A stretch of 64,000 bases of DNA, taken from contig JAHHHA010000005.1 of NCBI GenBank assembly GCA_019359615.1, positions 186,001 through 250,000 of the forward strand, read 5' to 3'. This stretch comes from Cyanosarcina radialis HA8281-LM2 (GTDB lineage Bacteria; Cyanobacteriota; Cyanobacteriia; Cyanobacteriales; CCAP-1448). Below the pieces are notes generated by a model, which saw only the letters and a list, made by a program, of their open reading frames with translations, searched no databases and was not told the origin of the DNA. Of the stretch, positions 48,268 to 55,076 are shown in pieces. Every line of letters starts with the position of its first letter. Position 1 is the first letter of the stretch. Made by a program: the position numbers and the translations under genes.

Positions 48268-48873
48268 TTGGTTCAAGACCGCGATTACACCTTAATCATC
48301 GACAAAAGCGGCAGTATGTCTACCCCCGATCAAAAGGGGGGTAAGAGTCGCTGGGATGCAGCGCAAGAGTCTACTTTAGCGCTAGCGAGAAAATGCGAAC
48401 AATTCGATCCCGATGGGATTACGGTTTACTTATTTTCTGGCAGATTCAAACGCTACGACGACGTTACCTCTAGCAGGGTGGCACAAATCTTCCAAGAAAA
48501 CGAACCCTCTGGGACTACCGATCTAGCTGGGGTTTTACAAGATGCTACCAATAGTTACTTTCGCCGCAAAGCTGCCGGACAAAGTAAACCTAATGGTGAA
48601 ACCATTTTGGTCATTACAGATGGGGAACCAGACGATCGCAAGGCAGTGATGCGAGTAATTATCGAAGCCTCTCGCCACATGGATCGAGATGAAGAGTTGG
48701 CAATTTCGCTGATTCAAGTTGGTAATGACAATACGGCAACTCGATTTTTGAAAGCGTTAGACGACGAACTCACGAGTGCCGGAGCTAAATTTGACCTGGT
48801 GGATACGATAACGCTTGAGGATATGGAAAACTTTACCTTAACTGAAGTTTTGCTCAATGCGATCGCCGATTGA
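48268..48873 (+). CDS. VWA domain protein (TerY-like), copy 1
   Basis: 201 aa, starting at TTG 48268; no ATG lies nearby, but GGAGG with 7-nt spacing supports the TTG. The von Willebrand A fold has an intact MIDAS: DKSGSMS (DxSxS), Thr in GTTDL, Asp in ITDGEPDD. It is soluble. The next gene is a near copy. Such single-domain VWA proteins act in metal-dependent protein assemblies; TerY relatives join tellurite and stress-response complexes, but no ter genes are present. Confidence 0.9.
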   Translation: MVQDRDYTLIIDKSGSMSTPDQKGGKSRWDAAQESTLALARKCEQFDPDGITVYLFSGRFKRYDDVTSSRVAQIFQENEPSGTTDLAGVLQDATNSYFRRKAAGQSKPNGETILVITDGEPDDRKAVMRVIIEASRHMDRDEELAISLIQVGNDNTATRFLKALDDELTSAGAKFDLVDTITLEDMENFTLTEVLLNAIAD

Positions 48874-48906
48874 TACTAAATTCGCATTGATAACTCTGTT
48901 TATGAT

Positions 48907-48953
48907 GGCGGTTGAAACCGCAGCTACACGATCGAAGTCCGCCTGCGCGGACT
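48907..48953. repeat. 47-bp dispersed repeat (copy 1)
   Basis: GGCGGTTGAAACCGCAGCTA and on to GCCTGCGCGGACT. 44 of 47 bases match 60443-60489, which lies within a coding region. It separates the two VWA genes. Confidence 0.8.
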
Positions 48954-48964
48954 AAAAGGAAACT

Positions 48965-49567
48965 ATGATGGAAAACCGCGATTACACCTTAATTATTGAC
49001 AAAAGTGGTAGTATGTCTACCCCCGATCAGCCAGGGGGTAGAAGTCGTTGGGACGCAGCCCAAGAGTCTACTTTGGCGCTGGCGAGAAAATGCGAACAAT
49101 TCGACCCGGATGGCATTACCGTTTACTTATTTTCTAGTAGATTCAAGCGGTACGATAATGTTAACTCCAGCAAGGTCGCTCAAATTTTTCAGGAAAACGA
49201 TCCGGCTGGTACTACTAACTTAGCTGCTGTCTTACAAGATGCTGCTAACAATTACTTTCAAAAGAAAGCCGCAGGGCAAACGAAAACCGGGGAAACAATT
49301 GTAGTGATTACAGATGGGGAGCCAGACGATCGCAAAGGAGTAATGCGAGCGATTATCGAAGCATCCCGTCAAATGGAACGAGATGAAGAATTAGCCATCT
49401 CGATGATTCAAGTCGGTTCGGACGCGACTGCCTCTCGCTTCTTAAAAGCTTTAGATGATGAGTTGCAAGGTGCTGGAGCTAAGTTTGATATTTGCGACAC
49501 GGTTACGATGGACGACATGGCAGATATGACCCTCGCTGAAGTCTTGCTCAATGCCGTGAGTGACTGA
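48965..49567 (+). CDS. VWA domain protein (TerY-like), copy 2
   Basis: 200 aa from ATG 48965 (MMENRDYTLIIDKSGSMS), with AAAGGA just upstream. It matches copy 1 at most positions over its full length, with the same MIDAS residues (DKSGSMS, GTTNL, ITDGEPDD). Differences cluster in surface segments (KPNG versus KTG near residue 115, and the C-terminal LEDMENFTL versus MDDMADMTL). A recent tandem duplication whose copies may form heteromers. Confidence 0.92.
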   Translation: MMENRDYTLIIDKSGSMSTPDQPGGRSRWDAAQESTLALARKCEQFDPDGITVYLFSSRFKRYDNVNSSKVAQIFQENDPAGTTNLAAVLQDAANNYFQKKAAGQTKTGETIVVITDGEPDDRKGVMRAIIEASRQMERDEELAISMIQVGSDATASRFLKALDDELQGAGAKFDICDTVTMDDMADMTLAEVLLNAVSD

Positions 49568-50655: not shown

Positions 50656-51129
50656 AAGAGCGATCGAGCTTGGTGGAGCAAAAAAAGTCACCTATTCTAG
50701 GCTACCGCAGGAGGTGATGAGTTTAGTTAATGGAAGGGCAGCATTTGCGATCGATCTCGACCTCGCACGCGGATGTTATTGCCCAAATGCTCGGCCCGTC
50801 CGAAGTTTGGTTAATTTGGCAACTGTAAAATTGACTTTCGAGCTATTGTTATTCAGTAAGAGAAAATTAGTCTTTTTGTAGTTGTCGAATTCCTATCTCT
50901 CGGTAGGGAAAAGTAAGACTGCCGAACTAGCCGAGTATTTAGCCTAGCGGCTGCGAGACTTGGGTGTTAAACCTGAAGTTTAAAAGTTAAAAAAGAAAGT
51001 TCAAAATTATATTTAGGTGGTATCTCCGGAATCTGCTTTTACTCTATTGGATATAATAAAAAAACGTTCCTTTCCAGTCTTGAATTACCCCGAACAGCCG
51101 ATCTAAACATCTTTTGAGGAGAAAGCTAG
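50656..51129. other. Intergenic region with a possible Uma2-type gene remnant
   Basis: No intact gene. A short ATG reading frame at 50717 has AGGAGG only 2 nt ahead and no family resemblance. At 50915-50983 the + strand reads KTAELAEYLA, stop, RLRDLGVKPEV, stop, which resembles the C-terminal end of Uma2/DUF820 nucleases; one stop interrupts it. The rest should hold promoters for hemC and the chaperone operon. Confidence 0.4.
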
Positions 51130-51969
51130 ATGCGCTCTGACAGAAGCCATAGTGTCAATGAATTTAAAAAGTTATTTCCTAATTACGCCGCCGGAATTCT
51201 ATTGTTACTGGCAGCGATCGCAGTATTTTTGTTAGGTTTATTCCCGCATTCAACGACTGACGATCGATTTGTCATTGCGGCAATTTTATTCGTTGGTGCT
51301 TGTGTTTTACTCGCTTGGACTCATCAACAAAATATCGAGCATAGCTATTTAGAAAGCTTGCCTAAATCGATCGACGAGATCAAAAAAGTCGGTCGAGAAT
51401 ATTATAAAAATACGGCAGCAATTCAAGATAATAGTGTATTCGTTAAGGAGCTATACGAAAAAATCGATCGATCTGATAATGGACTAATAGAGCTAAGAAA
51501 ATATTTAGAAGAATTACTGATAAAGCAGCGACAAGAAAATGGCAATCTGCAACGCAAGATAGAAAGTTGGCAAACAGCAGCGATCGGTTTCTTTCAAATG
51601 TTGGAACGAGCTATAGATTACGAGAAAAAAGAAAAAAATAAACGTCTTTTGGAGAAAATTATAACTGAGTTTGAACGCAGTTTAATGAATTTAGGACTAG
51701 AGCGGATAATTCCTCAAGTTAACGAACCGATAAACGAGATCTTCCACGAAGTCGTCGATGAAATAGAGTCAAATGAAGTCGTTTCAGGTACTATTTTAAA
51801 ATGCTACAGTTGGGGTTATCGAATTGGGGATACCGTGTTGGACAGGGCGCAGGTAGCTTTGGCCCAGTCGCTAGAAGATCGAGAACCAGCGATTCTACCT
51901 GCTGAAAGCCAAGCTGAAGAAAATGAATCGATCGCCGCTGCAAACGAATTAGAAATAACAGGACAATAA
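51130..51969 (+). CDS. Membrane-anchored GrpE-like protein
   Basis: 279 aa. Two N-terminal membrane helices (AAGILLLLAAIAVFLLGLFP and FVIAAILFVGACVLLAWTHQ, residues 19-63), a coiled-coil region (80-165, ELRKYLEELLIKQRQENGNL), and a C-terminal GrpE-like beta wing (about 185-260; LGLERIIPQVNEPINEIFHE, TILKCYSWGYRIGDTVLDRA). The wing is where GrpE contacts DnaK. An Hsp70 gene begins 3 bp after its stop. I infer a membrane-bound nucleotide exchange factor dedicated to that Hsp70. Confidence 0.8.
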   Translation: MRSDRSHSVNEFKKLFPNYAAGILLLLAAIAVFLLGLFPHSTTDDRFVIAAILFVGACVLLAWTHQQNIEHSYLESLPKSIDEIKKVGREYYKNTAAIQDNSVFVKELYEKIDRSDNGLIELRKYLEELLIKQRQENGNLQRKIESWQTAAIGFFQMLERAIDYEKKEKNKRLLEKIITEFERSLMNLGLERIIPQVNEPINEIFHEVVDEIESNEVVSGTILKCYSWGYRIGDTVLDRAQVALAQSLEDREPAILPAESQAEENESIAAANELEITGQ

Positions 51970-51972
51970 CCC

Positions 51973-53715
51973 ATGGATATGAATAAAAATTATGCTATTG
52001 GTATCGATCTCGGAACGTCTACTTCCGAAATTTGCGTATATAGAAACGACGAACCATTTCCGATTGGCGATCCTAATTGGCGATCGCCGATCGTCCCTTC
52101 ACTAATTGCCATTAACAAAAAAGGCGAATTATTAATAGGAGAAGAGGCACGCGGTTTAGTAGATGTATCCGGGCAAGGCATCCGCGAAATCAAACGCAAA
52201 ATGGGAACTGGAGAAACGATTAAGCTGCTCGATCGAGAGTATCGCCCGGAAGAAGTTTCCGCTTTAATTCTTCGCAAGCTCAAAGAAAATGCTGAAGAAG
52301 CTTTAGGAATTACCATTGAAGAAGTGGTGCTATCGGTTCCAGCTAACTTTCCCGATGCTGCTAGACAAGCTACCCTCAATGCTGGCGAATTAGCCGGACT
52401 CAAAATTATGCGCTTGATCAACGAGCCAACAGCCGCTGCCCTAGCTTTTGGAATTAAAAATATTGGCGTTGAAGAACAATTGGCAATTTTTGACTTCGGT
52501 GGGGGAACACTAGATATAACTATCTTAGAGATGGTGGCTGGTGTCCTTGATGTCAGGTGCAGTTTTGGCAACCCTCAACTAGGGGGTAAAGATTTTGATG
52601 AAGCAATGATGACTTTACTGCTGCAAAAATTAGAAGCTGTTAACCCAGGAGTAGAAATTTCTGATATTGCTTATCGGGCACTGAAGGAAGTAGCAGAGAA
52701 AACGAAAAAGGCACTTTCGACAGATAGCTTTCATCGAGTGAGAGTCCCTTATTTTGCCACTTGCAACGGTAAATCGATCGATTTAGACGTGGAAGTGACG
52801 CGGGCAGAATTCGAGATGGCAATCGCTCCTTTATTGGAACAAGCTAGAGAGTGCATCCGGCAAGCGCTAGCTGCCAGACAACTGCGTCCGAGCGCGATCG
52901 ATCGCATCTTACTCGTAGGAGGAACGACTTATATCCCAGCGGTGCGGGAATTAGTCACAGAAATGTTTGGCAAAGAACCAAAAGCTGATGTCAACCCCGA
53001 TTTAGCCGTAGGAATTGGCGCTGCGATTCAAGCAGCACTAGCTCAAGGTTTAATTAATGAAGAATCTGGAGTTATTCTCACCGATGTGGCTCCTTTTGGC
53101 TTGGGAATCGATATCGTTACCAGAATCGGCGGGCAATATATATTAACGTACGAACCTTTAATTCAACCAAACACGACAATTCCCTACTCTACCAAGAAAA
53201 CTTATCGCTTGCTCCACGCCGAACAAGAGCAAGTAGAAATTCGCCTTTATCAAGATAATACGGGCAAAGCTAAATTACCCAGCGAAACCATCTACACCGG
53301 AATTTCTGGCGAAATTATCGATATTCCTCCCGCCGCTGATGGCAATGCCTATCCTATAGAAGTCGAATTTTCTTACGATATCAATGGCATAGCTAAGTTA
53401 AAAGCGACGATATCTGGAACTAGTAAAAGTATAGAAATTACCTACGATCGCTCTCCCCAACGGATGGATGTTCAAGACAAATTTAACGCCACTGCACGAA
53501 TTAAAGATTTATGGAAACAAAATGCTAGAGCGAAACAGTATGAAGCCGTGATTAACAAAGCCGAACGATTTCTCTCCACTATTCCCCCTCAAGAAAGAGA
53601 ACCTTTATCTCAAATCGCGATCGATCTTAAAGTTGCCCTCGCTACTGACAACGTAGAACAAATTGAAAAATGGGGAAATATTTTAGTAGATACCATGTTT
53701 GAAATGGGATTGTAA
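51973..53715 (+). CDS. Hsp70 (DnaK-like) chaperone, short C-terminus
   Basis: 580 aa. Nucleotide-binding domain 1-385 with all three Hsp70 signatures: AIGIDLGTSTSEICVY, IFDFGGGTLDITILEM, and ILLVGGTTYIPAVRELV, plus LINEPTAAALAFG. The linker and beta substrate domain follow (ILTDVAPFGLGIDIV, about 375-490). The lid is shorter than in DnaK and ends FEMGL, without an EEVD-like tail. ATPase is expected to be active. The flanking GrpE-like and J-like genes make an accessory Hsp70 set separate from the housekeeping dnaK locus. Confidence 0.93.
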   Translation: MDMNKNYAIGIDLGTSTSEICVYRNDEPFPIGDPNWRSPIVPSLIAINKKGELLIGEEARGLVDVSGQGIREIKRKMGTGETIKLLDREYRPEEVSALILRKLKENAEEALGITIEEVVLSVPANFPDAARQATLNAGELAGLKIMRLINEPTAAALAFGIKNIGVEEQLAIFDFGGGTLDITILEMVAGVLDVRCSFGNPQLGGKDFDEAMMTLLLQKLEAVNPGVEISDIAYRALKEVAEKTKKALSTDSFHRVRVPYFATCNGKSIDLDVEVTRAEFEMAIAPLLEQARECIRQALAARQLRPSAIDRILLVGGTTYIPAVRELVTEMFGKEPKADVNPDLAVGIGAAIQAALAQGLINEESGVILTDVAPFGLGIDIVTRIGGQYILTYEPLIQPNTTIPYSTKKTYRLLHAEQEQVEIRLYQDNTGKAKLPSETIYTGISGEIIDIPPAADGNAYPIEVEFSYDINGIAKLKATISGTSKSIEITYDRSPQRMDVQDKFNATARIKDLWKQNARAKQYEAVINKAERFLSTIPPQEREPLSQIAIDLKVALATDNVEQIEKWGNILVDTMFEMGL

Positions 53716-53762
53716 ATTATGAGTTTGATTTTTAACTTTTGACTTTTGACTTTTGCTATATT

Positions 53763-55076
53763 ATGGTTTACGAACTATATCAAACCCTCGAAGTATCGCC
53801 TCAAGCCGAGCTAGAAGAAATTCGGCGCTCTTACTATCGGCTAGTCCGAAAATATTCGCCAGAAAGACATCCAGAACGATTTCAAGTCATCCGAGAAGCT
53901 TATGAAACGCTCTCAGATAAGCAAGCGAGGCAAAATTACGATGCCCTGCAAAAATATGGCGATGAAATTCAAGTTCTGATCGAGCAAGCTGAAGCTTGCA
54001 TGAGTGAAGAAAAGTGGACGATGGCGATCGATTTGTTAAAACGCATTCTTACTTTAGCACCTGGTGCAGATGCGGCTCGCAATCGTTTAGGGATTTGCTA
54101 TATTCATAGCAAGAATTGGGACTTTGCAGTTAAAGTGTTTCGTGCCTTAACCAAAATTAATCCCCACGTTCCGCTTTATTGGTTGAATTTTGGTTATGCC
54201 TACAAGCAGCAAGCCGATATTTTAGATAACGAAGATTATCGGCGAGGGCAATTGTACCATCAGGCTCGCGAATGCTTTCAAGTATGTACCAAGCTAGAAT
54301 CTTTCAATCCAGAACCTTATGTAGAAATAGCTCGTACCTATTTAGAAGAAAGTAATTATGCTGAATCTTTAGTTTGGTCCGAACGTGCAATTGGTGCTGA
54401 CGGTAAAACTGATTTTCAAGATTTTGATACTCTATTTTTTATTTGTATTATTTACTGGCGGAGCGGCGAGTTTGCCCATATCGATCGCACCGCCCAAAGA
54501 ATTATTTCTTTATTACCTGCTAATGATGATGCCCGTAAATATGCCGCAGCCAGATTTTTTAATATGGGTTTAGACATATTTAAATTCGGCGTTAAACAAG
54601 TTAATTATAGTTTGTTTAGAGCGGCATCTAAATTTCTCAAAGCAGCTAAAGACTTTGACCCTAACGATATTGAAATCAAAGATTTATATCAAAATGTTGA
54701 ATTAATGGTTGCGGGAGTAGATAGCTTGGAAATAATTAGACAAGATTCTACGATCGTCAATGAATTAAAAAGTTTGTGCGAATTTATTTTAGCCGATCGC
54801 TGCTATTATTTTGAATCTGATGAAGAGAAGAACAAAATCTACGATCGCCTGATGGAAGAAATTTTTGCTAATCCACCTAACTTGATTCTAGATTCAGTCA
54901 AGAAAATCAAATATAACTATCTAGCGATCTATCAGCTAAATAGCGACCTATTCGGGCAAATCGAACAGGCTATTTATCAGTGGTATACCCACCAGTCTTC
55001 TGGCAATTACAACTCTTTTTCAGGAATCGGCAAGGAAATTGCTTCAACTTTAAAAAAATGGCTGAAGTGGCGGTAA
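53763..55076 (+). CDS. J-domain-like/TPR protein lacking the HPD motif
   Basis: 437 aa from ATG 53763 (MVYELYQTLEVSPQAELE). Residues 1-65 form a J domain by helix pattern (EIRRSYYRLVRKYSPERHPE, RFQVIREAYETLSDKQARQN), but the loop carries SPE where all active J domains have HPD, so it should not stimulate ATPase in the usual way. TPR-like helices follow (EKWTMAIDLLKRILTLAPGA, EPYVEIARTYLEESNYAESL). No membrane helix. It may recruit clients or hold the Hsp70 rather than drive its cycle. Third gene of the operon, 47 bp after the Hsp70 gene. Confidence 0.85.
   Translation: MVYELYQTLEVSPQAELEEIRRSYYRLVRKYSPERHPERFQVIREAYETLSDKQARQNYDALQKYGDEIQVLIEQAEACMSEEKWTMAIDLLKRILTLAPGADAARNRLGICYIHSKNWDFAVKVFRALTKINPHVPLYWLNFGYAYKQQADILDNEDYRRGQLYHQARECFQVCTKLESFNPEPYVEIARTYLEESNYAESLVWSERAIGADGKTDFQDFDTLFFICIIYWRSGEFAHIDRTAQRIISLLPANDDARKYAAARFFNMGLDIFKFGVKQVNYSLFRAASKFLKAAKDFDPNDIEIKDLYQNVELMVAGVDSLEIIRQDSTIVNELKSLCEFILADRCYYFESDEEKNKIYDRLMEEIFANPPNLILDSVKKIKYNYLAIYQLNSDLFGQIEQAIYQWYTHQSSGNYNSFSGIGKEIASTLKKWLKWR

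Follow-up and report, generated by a model that had tools for sequence, protein, structure and literature searches.

A window of 64,000 nucleotides from Cyanosarcina radialis HA8281-LM2 (contig JAHHHA010000005.1, positions 186,001 to 250,000; positions below are those of the window) carries, at 51130-55076, three consecutive genes on one strand that encode a GrpE-like protein, an Hsp70 and a J/TPR protein whose J domain reads SPE in place of HPD. Based on gene order, folds, the motif, retained residues and conservation across phyla, we propose, with a probability of roughly three in four, that the accessory Hsp70 machine encoded by this locus is self-contained, belongs to the HscC/DjlC kind and has its own GrpE, and that its SPE triad would still trigger ATP hydrolysis. 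A first-pass annotation of the same DNA had reported the three genes with gaps of 3 bp (GrpE-like/Hsp70) and 47 bp (Hsp70/J/TPR), had taken them as one machine and had suggested looking for the same three-gene order in cyanobacterial genomes. The open reading frames and gaps are as it described, and the order GrpE-like, Hsp70, J/TPR is kept in all six genomes that hold the J/TPR gene among the 388 searched within the order (in one of the six, G641, the contig ends inside the GrpE-like gene), which supports the view of a single machine.

51130-51969, plus strand: gene for the GrpE-like putative exchange factor, 279 aa, with an N-terminal membrane anchor (Pfam GrpE; GrpE fold match).
51973-53715, plus strand: gene for the HscC-type Hsp70, 580 aa (Pfam HSP70; L1,2 loop, lid and lobe I of HscC type; outside the DnaK/HscA clan).
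53763-55076, plus strand: gene for the J/TPR co-chaperone from its ATG, 437 aa (Pfam DnaJ and TPR families; model).

The J/TPR protein matches Pfam DnaJ (56.6 bits, E=2.8e-15) as well as TPR families, and its model is all-helical with a mean predicted local distance difference test (pLDDT) score of 89.2. The canonical HPD motif is absent from its J domain, which reads SPE, as the first-pass annotation had recognized.

53856-53864, plus strand: residues 32-34, where SPE replaces HPD, with RHPER as the 5-residue loop that leads to helix III, read from the sequence.
53919-54998, plus strand: TPR-like helical solenoid (residues 53-412), presumed to bind clients or partners, from the model and PDB matches to TPR superhelices.

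Relatives were sought via the J domain because the matches of P0001 alone were weak and short (24-34% identity, mostly below 120 residues, in 13/59 other genomes; 60 relatives scanned). As a single query, the J/TPR protein gave no relative in the scan of genome_contigs, and in plasmids it matched two records only, by the J domain alone (13% of the query). We therefore searched genome_contigs with 10 aligned J domains that have no HPD and kept the best 80 of 118 relatives; since one of the two peptide patterns used in this search itself demanded a non-HPD short loop, and since only these 80 were kept, the counts that follow describe the class and not its frequency. At least one non-HPD J domain is present in 68 of the 80 loci (70 such domains), and 12 loci have HPD only. 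The 70 triads comprise PPE (31), SPE (29), PPH (2), PAH (2), and PPD, HPE, NPE, APE, SPD and PPS (once each), and their hosts include Cyanobacteriota, Bacillota, Chloroflexota, Acidobacteriota, Myxococcota, Pseudomonadota, Armatimonadota, Planctomycetota and Spirochaetes. The loop between the third triad residue and the aromatic residue of helix III has 5 residues in 69/70 of these domains by script (the 70th, L101, is a mis-hit of the regular expression, with a loop of 5 by eye); in 14 HPD domains of the set, it has 7-14 residues. DjlB and DjlC of Escherichia coli, translated from the genome, have HPE with a 5-residue loop (TDPQG) and score higher with a model of the non-HPD domains than with a model of the HPD domains (DjlB, 55.8 vs 34.5 bits; DjlC, 45.7 vs 23.6 bits), and the reverse holds for E. 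coli DnaJ (58.9 vs 108.5 bits). Because DjlB and DjlC share the 5-residue loop and the preference for the non-HPD model, the SPE domain of the window, likewise with Glu as the third residue and a 5-residue loop, is by its sequence of the DjlB/DjlC type.

Two of the loci hold further arrangements. In Fischerella muscicola (L115:7851-9545), one open reading frame joins an Hsp70 part to a J part that is without its first helices and keeps SPE, which may be a deletion or a fusion. Upstream of a Myxococcales SPE J-Hsp70 pair, L112:2205-5237 encodes a large protein that, we presume, resembles DUF4157-type proteins.

The Hsp70 of the window matches Pfam HSP70 (E=2.9e-112) and scores 399.9 bits against the DnaK model of NCBIfam, under the cut-off of 648, and is thus not of the DnaK type. 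Its length of 580 aa is within the range of 550-580 aa given for HscC (PMC8215388; this and the other papers cited here are drawn on in excerpt). The short lid noted in the first-pass annotation has, from the DnaK-507 position, 83 residues in the window protein and 83 in E. coli HscC vs 132 in E. coli DnaK, and the span of DnaK 507-560 has 43 residues in the former two vs 54 in DnaK, in line with the loss of about nine residues in lid helix B that marks HscC. The protein also has an enlarged L1,2 loop in the beta part of the substrate-binding domain (SBD-beta).

53110-53169, plus strand: enlarged L1,2 loop of SBD-beta, 20 residues vs 13 in DnaK, by alignment.

This insertion of 7 residues relative to E. 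coli DnaK falls within the 4-8 residues that characterize HscC (E. coli HscC, 4). In a 71-row Hsp70 alignment (L098 and G118 being one gene, and L115, L139 and L175 being joined or partial), the L1,2 region (DnaK 393-418) has 26 residues in 7/7 rows of the DnaK/HscA type, among them the Hsp70s paired with HPD J genes at L136 and L165, and 30-36 residues in 64/64 rows outside this type, E. coli HscC included. In lobe I of the nucleotide-binding domain, only 3 of the 26 positions of DnaK 76-101 are filled in the window Hsp70 and E. coli HscC alike, a deletion which is not unique to HscC. The DnaK/HscA rows form one clan (100/100) in an unrooted 60-row maximum-likelihood tree, with the window Hsp70 and E. 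coli HscC outside; E. coli HscC is a long row in this tree, which was repeated with 50 rows. Two features depart from HscC. The exposed GrpE signature loop, mostly missing in E. coli HscC, is kept in the window Hsp70, and of the two cleft salt bridges, R55-E267 is kept and the one with R56 is lost (DnaK numbering), whereas most HscCs are without both and some retain one (PMC8215388). We assign the system to the HscC/DjlC kind because its motif and structure match, although the GrpE loop and salt bridges do not.

In the canonical system, D35 of the HPD motif of DnaJ bonds with R167 and Q378 of DnaK (PMC8215388). The equivalents of DnaK R167, N170, T173, Q378, L391, D393 and P419 are kept in the window Hsp70; those of D211 and D477 are not.

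52411-52413, plus strand: Arg147 of the window Hsp70; in the alignment to E. coli DnaK it corresponds to R167, which pairs with the third HPD residue.

Among J-Hsp70 pairs with an acidic third triad residue, 63/64 have Arg at 167 (L115, whose joined frame misaligns at this site, was left out, and L139 is masked there). The sole exception, L198 from Planctomycetota, combines PPE with Leu167 and has Arg at 378, the other contact of D35, to which the Arg may have been relocated; we therefore rejected a strict one-to-one correspondence of the J acid with R167. Where the third residue is non-acidic, position 167 is not Arg in 5/5 pairs, namely Gln167 in four PAH pairs (L074, L093, L173 and L175) and His167 with Arg378 in one PPH pair (L172). 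We set aside a Fisher p of 5e-7 for the association (calculated with L115), as the pairs are related. In 6/6 genomes inspected, the gene for the 98-aa PAH J protein is accompanied by a Q167 Hsp70, and two of these genomes (G000 and G225) are already among the four PAH pairs; in G188, G058 and G112 (a partial match in the latter), the Q167 Hsp70 is present though not adjacent to the J gene, and the six DnaK-type Hsp70s read in this check have Arg at 167. The unrooted 50-row tree places the PAH clade far from L172/L198 (L172 being a very long row in it), so the J acid and Hsp70 position 167 appear to have changed together at least twice independently, and perhaps three times should L172 and L198 be separate cases, few as these events are. 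The pattern looks like a natural version of the suppressor pairs in which DnaK R167H or R167A and DnaJ D35N compensate each other (PMC5519331; PMC13012618).

At L198:5768-9683, the Hsp70 has AEPT and lies beside the PPE J gene and a gene for a 726-aa protein with a GrpE match. At L172:7983-10361, two tandem PPH J proteins, each with a C-terminal hydrophobic stretch, are encoded 3' of the His167 Hsp70.

The first gene of the cassette had been described as a two-helix membrane protein with a GrpE-like wing, which agrees with our analysis.

51187-51243, plus strand: hydrophobic stretch 1, residues 20-38, mean Kyte-Doolittle 2.82.
51268-51324, plus strand: hydrophobic stretch 2, residues 47-65, mean Kyte-Doolittle 2.27.
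51697-51867, plus strand: predicted GrpE beta wing, residues 190-246, six strands in the model, mean pLDDT of about 75-90 per ten-residue block.

The protein matches Pfam GrpE with 50.7 bits (E=2.1e-13; curated cut-off, 25.8). Its AlphaFold2 model, made from four sequences, is modest overall (mean pLDDT 63.5, predicted template modelling score 0.39) and better at residues 165-250, where helices and wing are predicted (block means 74-89). Whether the wing folds like GrpE had been named as a check in the first-pass annotation, and a Foldseek comparison of the model with the PDB returned 11 matches at E<=0.001, all of them GrpE, with 1dkg_B as the best (E=1.6e-7, probability 1.00).

A GrpE gene is a regular companion of such pairs. 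Among 70 non-redundant J-Hsp70 pairs (L072 and L090 were dropped as duplicates of L098 and L097, and the joined frame L115 was retained), the local profile found a GrpE beside 47, a further 13 exceed the Pfam cut-off (60/70), and two more lie below it (L144 and L172), giving 62/70, all within 344 bp of the Hsp70 and on the same strand. No GrpE was found beside the remaining eight pairs (L109, L112, L113, L116, L117, L141, L176 and L202), of which L113 lies at a contig end, L141 is on a contig that seems by eye to begin inside a GrpE-like C-terminus, and L202 passed in a smaller GrpE search. Myxococcota account for five of the eight; one of these five, L176, is the row closest to E. coli HscC. 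That a DnaK paralogue can have a GrpE of its own is already known from the GrpE-DnaK2 bicistron of Myxococcus xanthus (PMC11019930). As a separate observation, L075:4388-5068 (contig C10 of G000) encodes a 226-aa protein with, by eye, an XRE-type helix-turn-helix and a GrpE-like C-terminal part (PF01025, E=6.3e-6).

The membrane anchor is a different matter. Two N-terminal hydrophobic stretches are present in the GrpE-like proteins of the window, G315, G118 and G636 and in an Armatimonadota relative (L110), but among the 15 assessable cyanobacterial GrpE-like proteins of this type, four, the window's counted, have the anchor and 11 are without it (G411, L099-L102, L104-L108 and L115; that of L106 is short and may be incomplete). 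The GrpE-like protein of L172 has one hydrophobic stretch at the same threshold. Elsewhere it is the J protein that has a hydrophobic stretch, either near the C-terminus as in E. coli DjlB/DjlC (L107, L121 and both J proteins of L172) or further in (several others, Myxococcota among them). Since the anchor is on different subunits or on none, the class is not defined by a membrane role, plausible though such a role is for the window set. The idea that membrane tethering defines the system was dropped because of the 11 cyanobacterial proteins without helices, so that the tether proposed in the first-pass annotation stands for the window protein and not for most of its cyanobacterial relatives.

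Taken together, these results suggest the following working model. The J/TPR protein would bind a client via its TPR solenoid and present it to the Hsp70. Glu34 would then take the role of DnaJ Asp35 and meet Arg147, triggering ATP hydrolysis, while within the SPE loop, Pro would keep the loop geometry and Ser would replace His33. The dedicated GrpE may, by ADP release, reset the Hsp70, in which the GrpE loop and the R55-E267 pair are kept, and as this GrpE is membrane-anchored in this strain, exchange and client release are proposed to take place at the membrane, many relatives being without the anchor. We infer in this model the ATPase stimulation, the action of GrpE on the window Hsp70, client binding and the membrane site of action. 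The loss of HPD had previously been taken to imply a different cycle. This is not how we read it, because the Glu is still acidic, the partner Arg is kept, the domain belongs with DjlB/DjlC, and DjlC is reported to stimulate the HscC ATPase (PMC8215388; PMC13254874).

Several points weigh against our proposal. The change from HPD to SPE also loses His33, and in the excerpts, the cited systems lose their activity when H is changed to Q (PMC8215388) and HPE is seemingly the sole tolerated HPD replacement (PMC13254874); an assay of an SPE or PPE J domain was not found in the literature examined. In the unrooted trees with 60 and 50 rows, the window Hsp70 and E. coli HscC are on one side of the DnaK/HscA clan, but they are far apart and not sisters. 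Myxococcota loci in which no GrpE was found beside the Hsp70 have the GrpE loop too; the loop is therefore no proof of GrpE pairing, and we discarded the notion that its retention proves a neighbouring GrpE. Moreover, the machine seems to be dispensable in some hosts, because two of the six cassettes are damaged (an internal stop in J/TPR in G315; a split Hsp70 and a J/TPR without an inner part in G636).

In one alternative, which the loss of His33 favours, the J/TPR protein is a true pseudo-J (type IV) protein, which would dock the Hsp70 without triggering it and recruit it to clients, with turnover provided by GrpE or by a canonical J protein in trans; it is just in this form that the different cycle of the first-pass annotation survives. 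Such a role has a precedent in Pam16-like proteins (PMC13254874), and H to Q kills DnaK stimulation in work cited by PMC8215388. However, the partner Arg is kept in 63/64 pairs with an acidic third residue, DjlC with its related loop is reported to be active on HscC, and the non-HPD J gene lies within 2.6 kb of an Hsp70 gene in 59/68 scanned loci that have one, which is unlike decay. We therefore consider a pseudo-J protein unlikely, and prefer an SPE domain that triggers hydrolysis. Less likely again is that the GrpE-like protein is a membrane receptor which only docks the Hsp70 and is no exchange factor. The window's GrpE-like protein has a divergent sequence, at 16-25% identity to its 11 best matches of known structure, and E. 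coli HscC, which is without the GrpE signature, is inferred to work without GrpE, as are HscCs in general (PMC8215388, as excerpted). However, the GrpE helices and wing are predicted in the window protein, and GrpE adjoins 62/70 pairs mostly without membrane helices, so that the GrpE fold, and not the anchor, is the conserved part. Finally, we consider it very improbable that the cassette now serves no role in most hosts and is decaying or selfish cargo. It is present in only 6/388 genomes of the order and has broken genes in G315 and G636, but in the window each of the three reading frames is open and the motifs are intact, and across the many phyla of the wider class the loops and contact residues are conserved.

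The accessory machine that we favour resembles the E. coli system in several ways. Both Hsp70s are short (556 aa in HscC vs 580 aa) with the same type of L1,2 insertion and the same lid and lobe I deletions, both J domains have Pro-Glu preceded by a variable residue (xPE) and a 5-residue loop, and both systems have a membrane link. However, in the window a GrpE is in the operon, the GrpE loop and one of the salt-bridge pairs are retained in the Hsp70, GrpE and not the J protein carries the anchor (DjlB/DjlC have tail anchors; PMC8215388), the triad is SPE and not HPE, and the C-terminal part of the J protein is a TPR solenoid; further, the window genes are in a row on one strand, whereas E. 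coli hscC is on the opposite strand from djlB/djlC. For E. coli K-12 without hscC, djlB and djlC, sensitivity to Cd is reported (PMC8215388). With DnaK-DnaJ-GrpE, the window set shares the three functions, but it differs in having no HPD, a loop of 5 vs 11 residues, the L1,2 insertion and a short lid. As in pseudo-J proteins (type IV, such as Pam16; PMC13254874), HPD is replaced, but in the window set the acid and the partner Arg remain and the gene is beside its own Hsp70. Therefore, the description of the locus as an undescribed system in the first-pass annotation was too strong, and we regard it as a GrpE-coupled variant of the HscC/DjlC kind. For GrpE-coupled HscC-type operons, no account was found in the open-access full text searched, and they may already be described elsewhere; nor did that text yield an account of natural covariation at J35/Hsp70-167.

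The genome of the window contains a second accessory operon besides its housekeeping genes, on contig C21, which encodes a 98-aa J protein (J98), a GrpE and a 594-aa Hsp70. Like the window set, it is accessory, with a J domain that has a 5-residue loop and no HPD; unlike it, the triad is PAH, Hsp70 position 167 is Gln, the GrpE has no membrane helices and the J protein has no TPR part. Strong matches to J98 were found in 6/194 genomes of the phylum, its own counted. The operon (L074:5232-8534 in G000) is followed by a gene for a 146-aa protein with, by eye, CxxC motifs and TPR-like repeats.

More broadly, and only tentatively, we suggest that these loci belong to a large parallel bacterial class of Hsp70 machines in which HPD has been recoded to xPE on a short loop, most with a dedicated GrpE, and in which the trigger acid and/or the Hsp70 Arg has changed as a pair in two to three lineages (PAH/Q167; PPH/H167 with R378; and PPE/L167 with R378 in L198). 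If this holds, the changed pairs would be orthogonal J-Hsp70 pairs that arose in nature, an evolutionary parallel to the D35N/R167H and D35N/R167A suppressor pairs made in the laboratory; HPD would be replaceable; and HscC-type machines would commonly use GrpE, E. coli being the exception. A 2026 review calls it enigmatic whether HPD deviations are accidents or selected (PMC13254874, in the part cited), and a conserved xPE class beside its own Hsp70 and usually a GrpE, in many phyla, argues for selection. The GrpE genes beside HscC-type Hsp70s likewise question the E. coli-based inference that no exchange factor is used (PMC8215388), and the xPE pairs are ready-made material for studying how J triggering works when the His is missing, both in the presence and in the absence of the acid-arginine bridge.

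The cassette itself is rare. Long matches to the J/TPR gene occur in 4/386 genomes of the phylum and 6/388 of the order, the window's own genome being in both. Within about 5 kb of 13 window-type loci, no recurrent neighbour was seen by eye beyond the cassette, except among close Brasilonema/Scytonema/Tolypothrix relatives, and we propose no client for this reason. A look for ties between GrpE/DnaK/J and conflict systems in the literature gave a single title, concerning DnaJ and phage sensing. The start of J/TPR is most likely ATG 53763, with TTG 53739 as a possible alternative, and two further elements were read from the sequence.

51116-51121, plus strand: Shine-Dalgarno-like GAGGAG, 5' of the GrpE-like gene.
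53716-53762, plus strand: 47-bp gap before the J/TPR ATG, with tandem TTTTGAC-like heptamers at 53723-53757.

Elsewhere in the window, two tandem and very similar vWA-like proteins (201 and 200 aa) are encoded at 48268-49567, among protein kinase, ABC1-like and PP2C-like genes, all as judged by eye.

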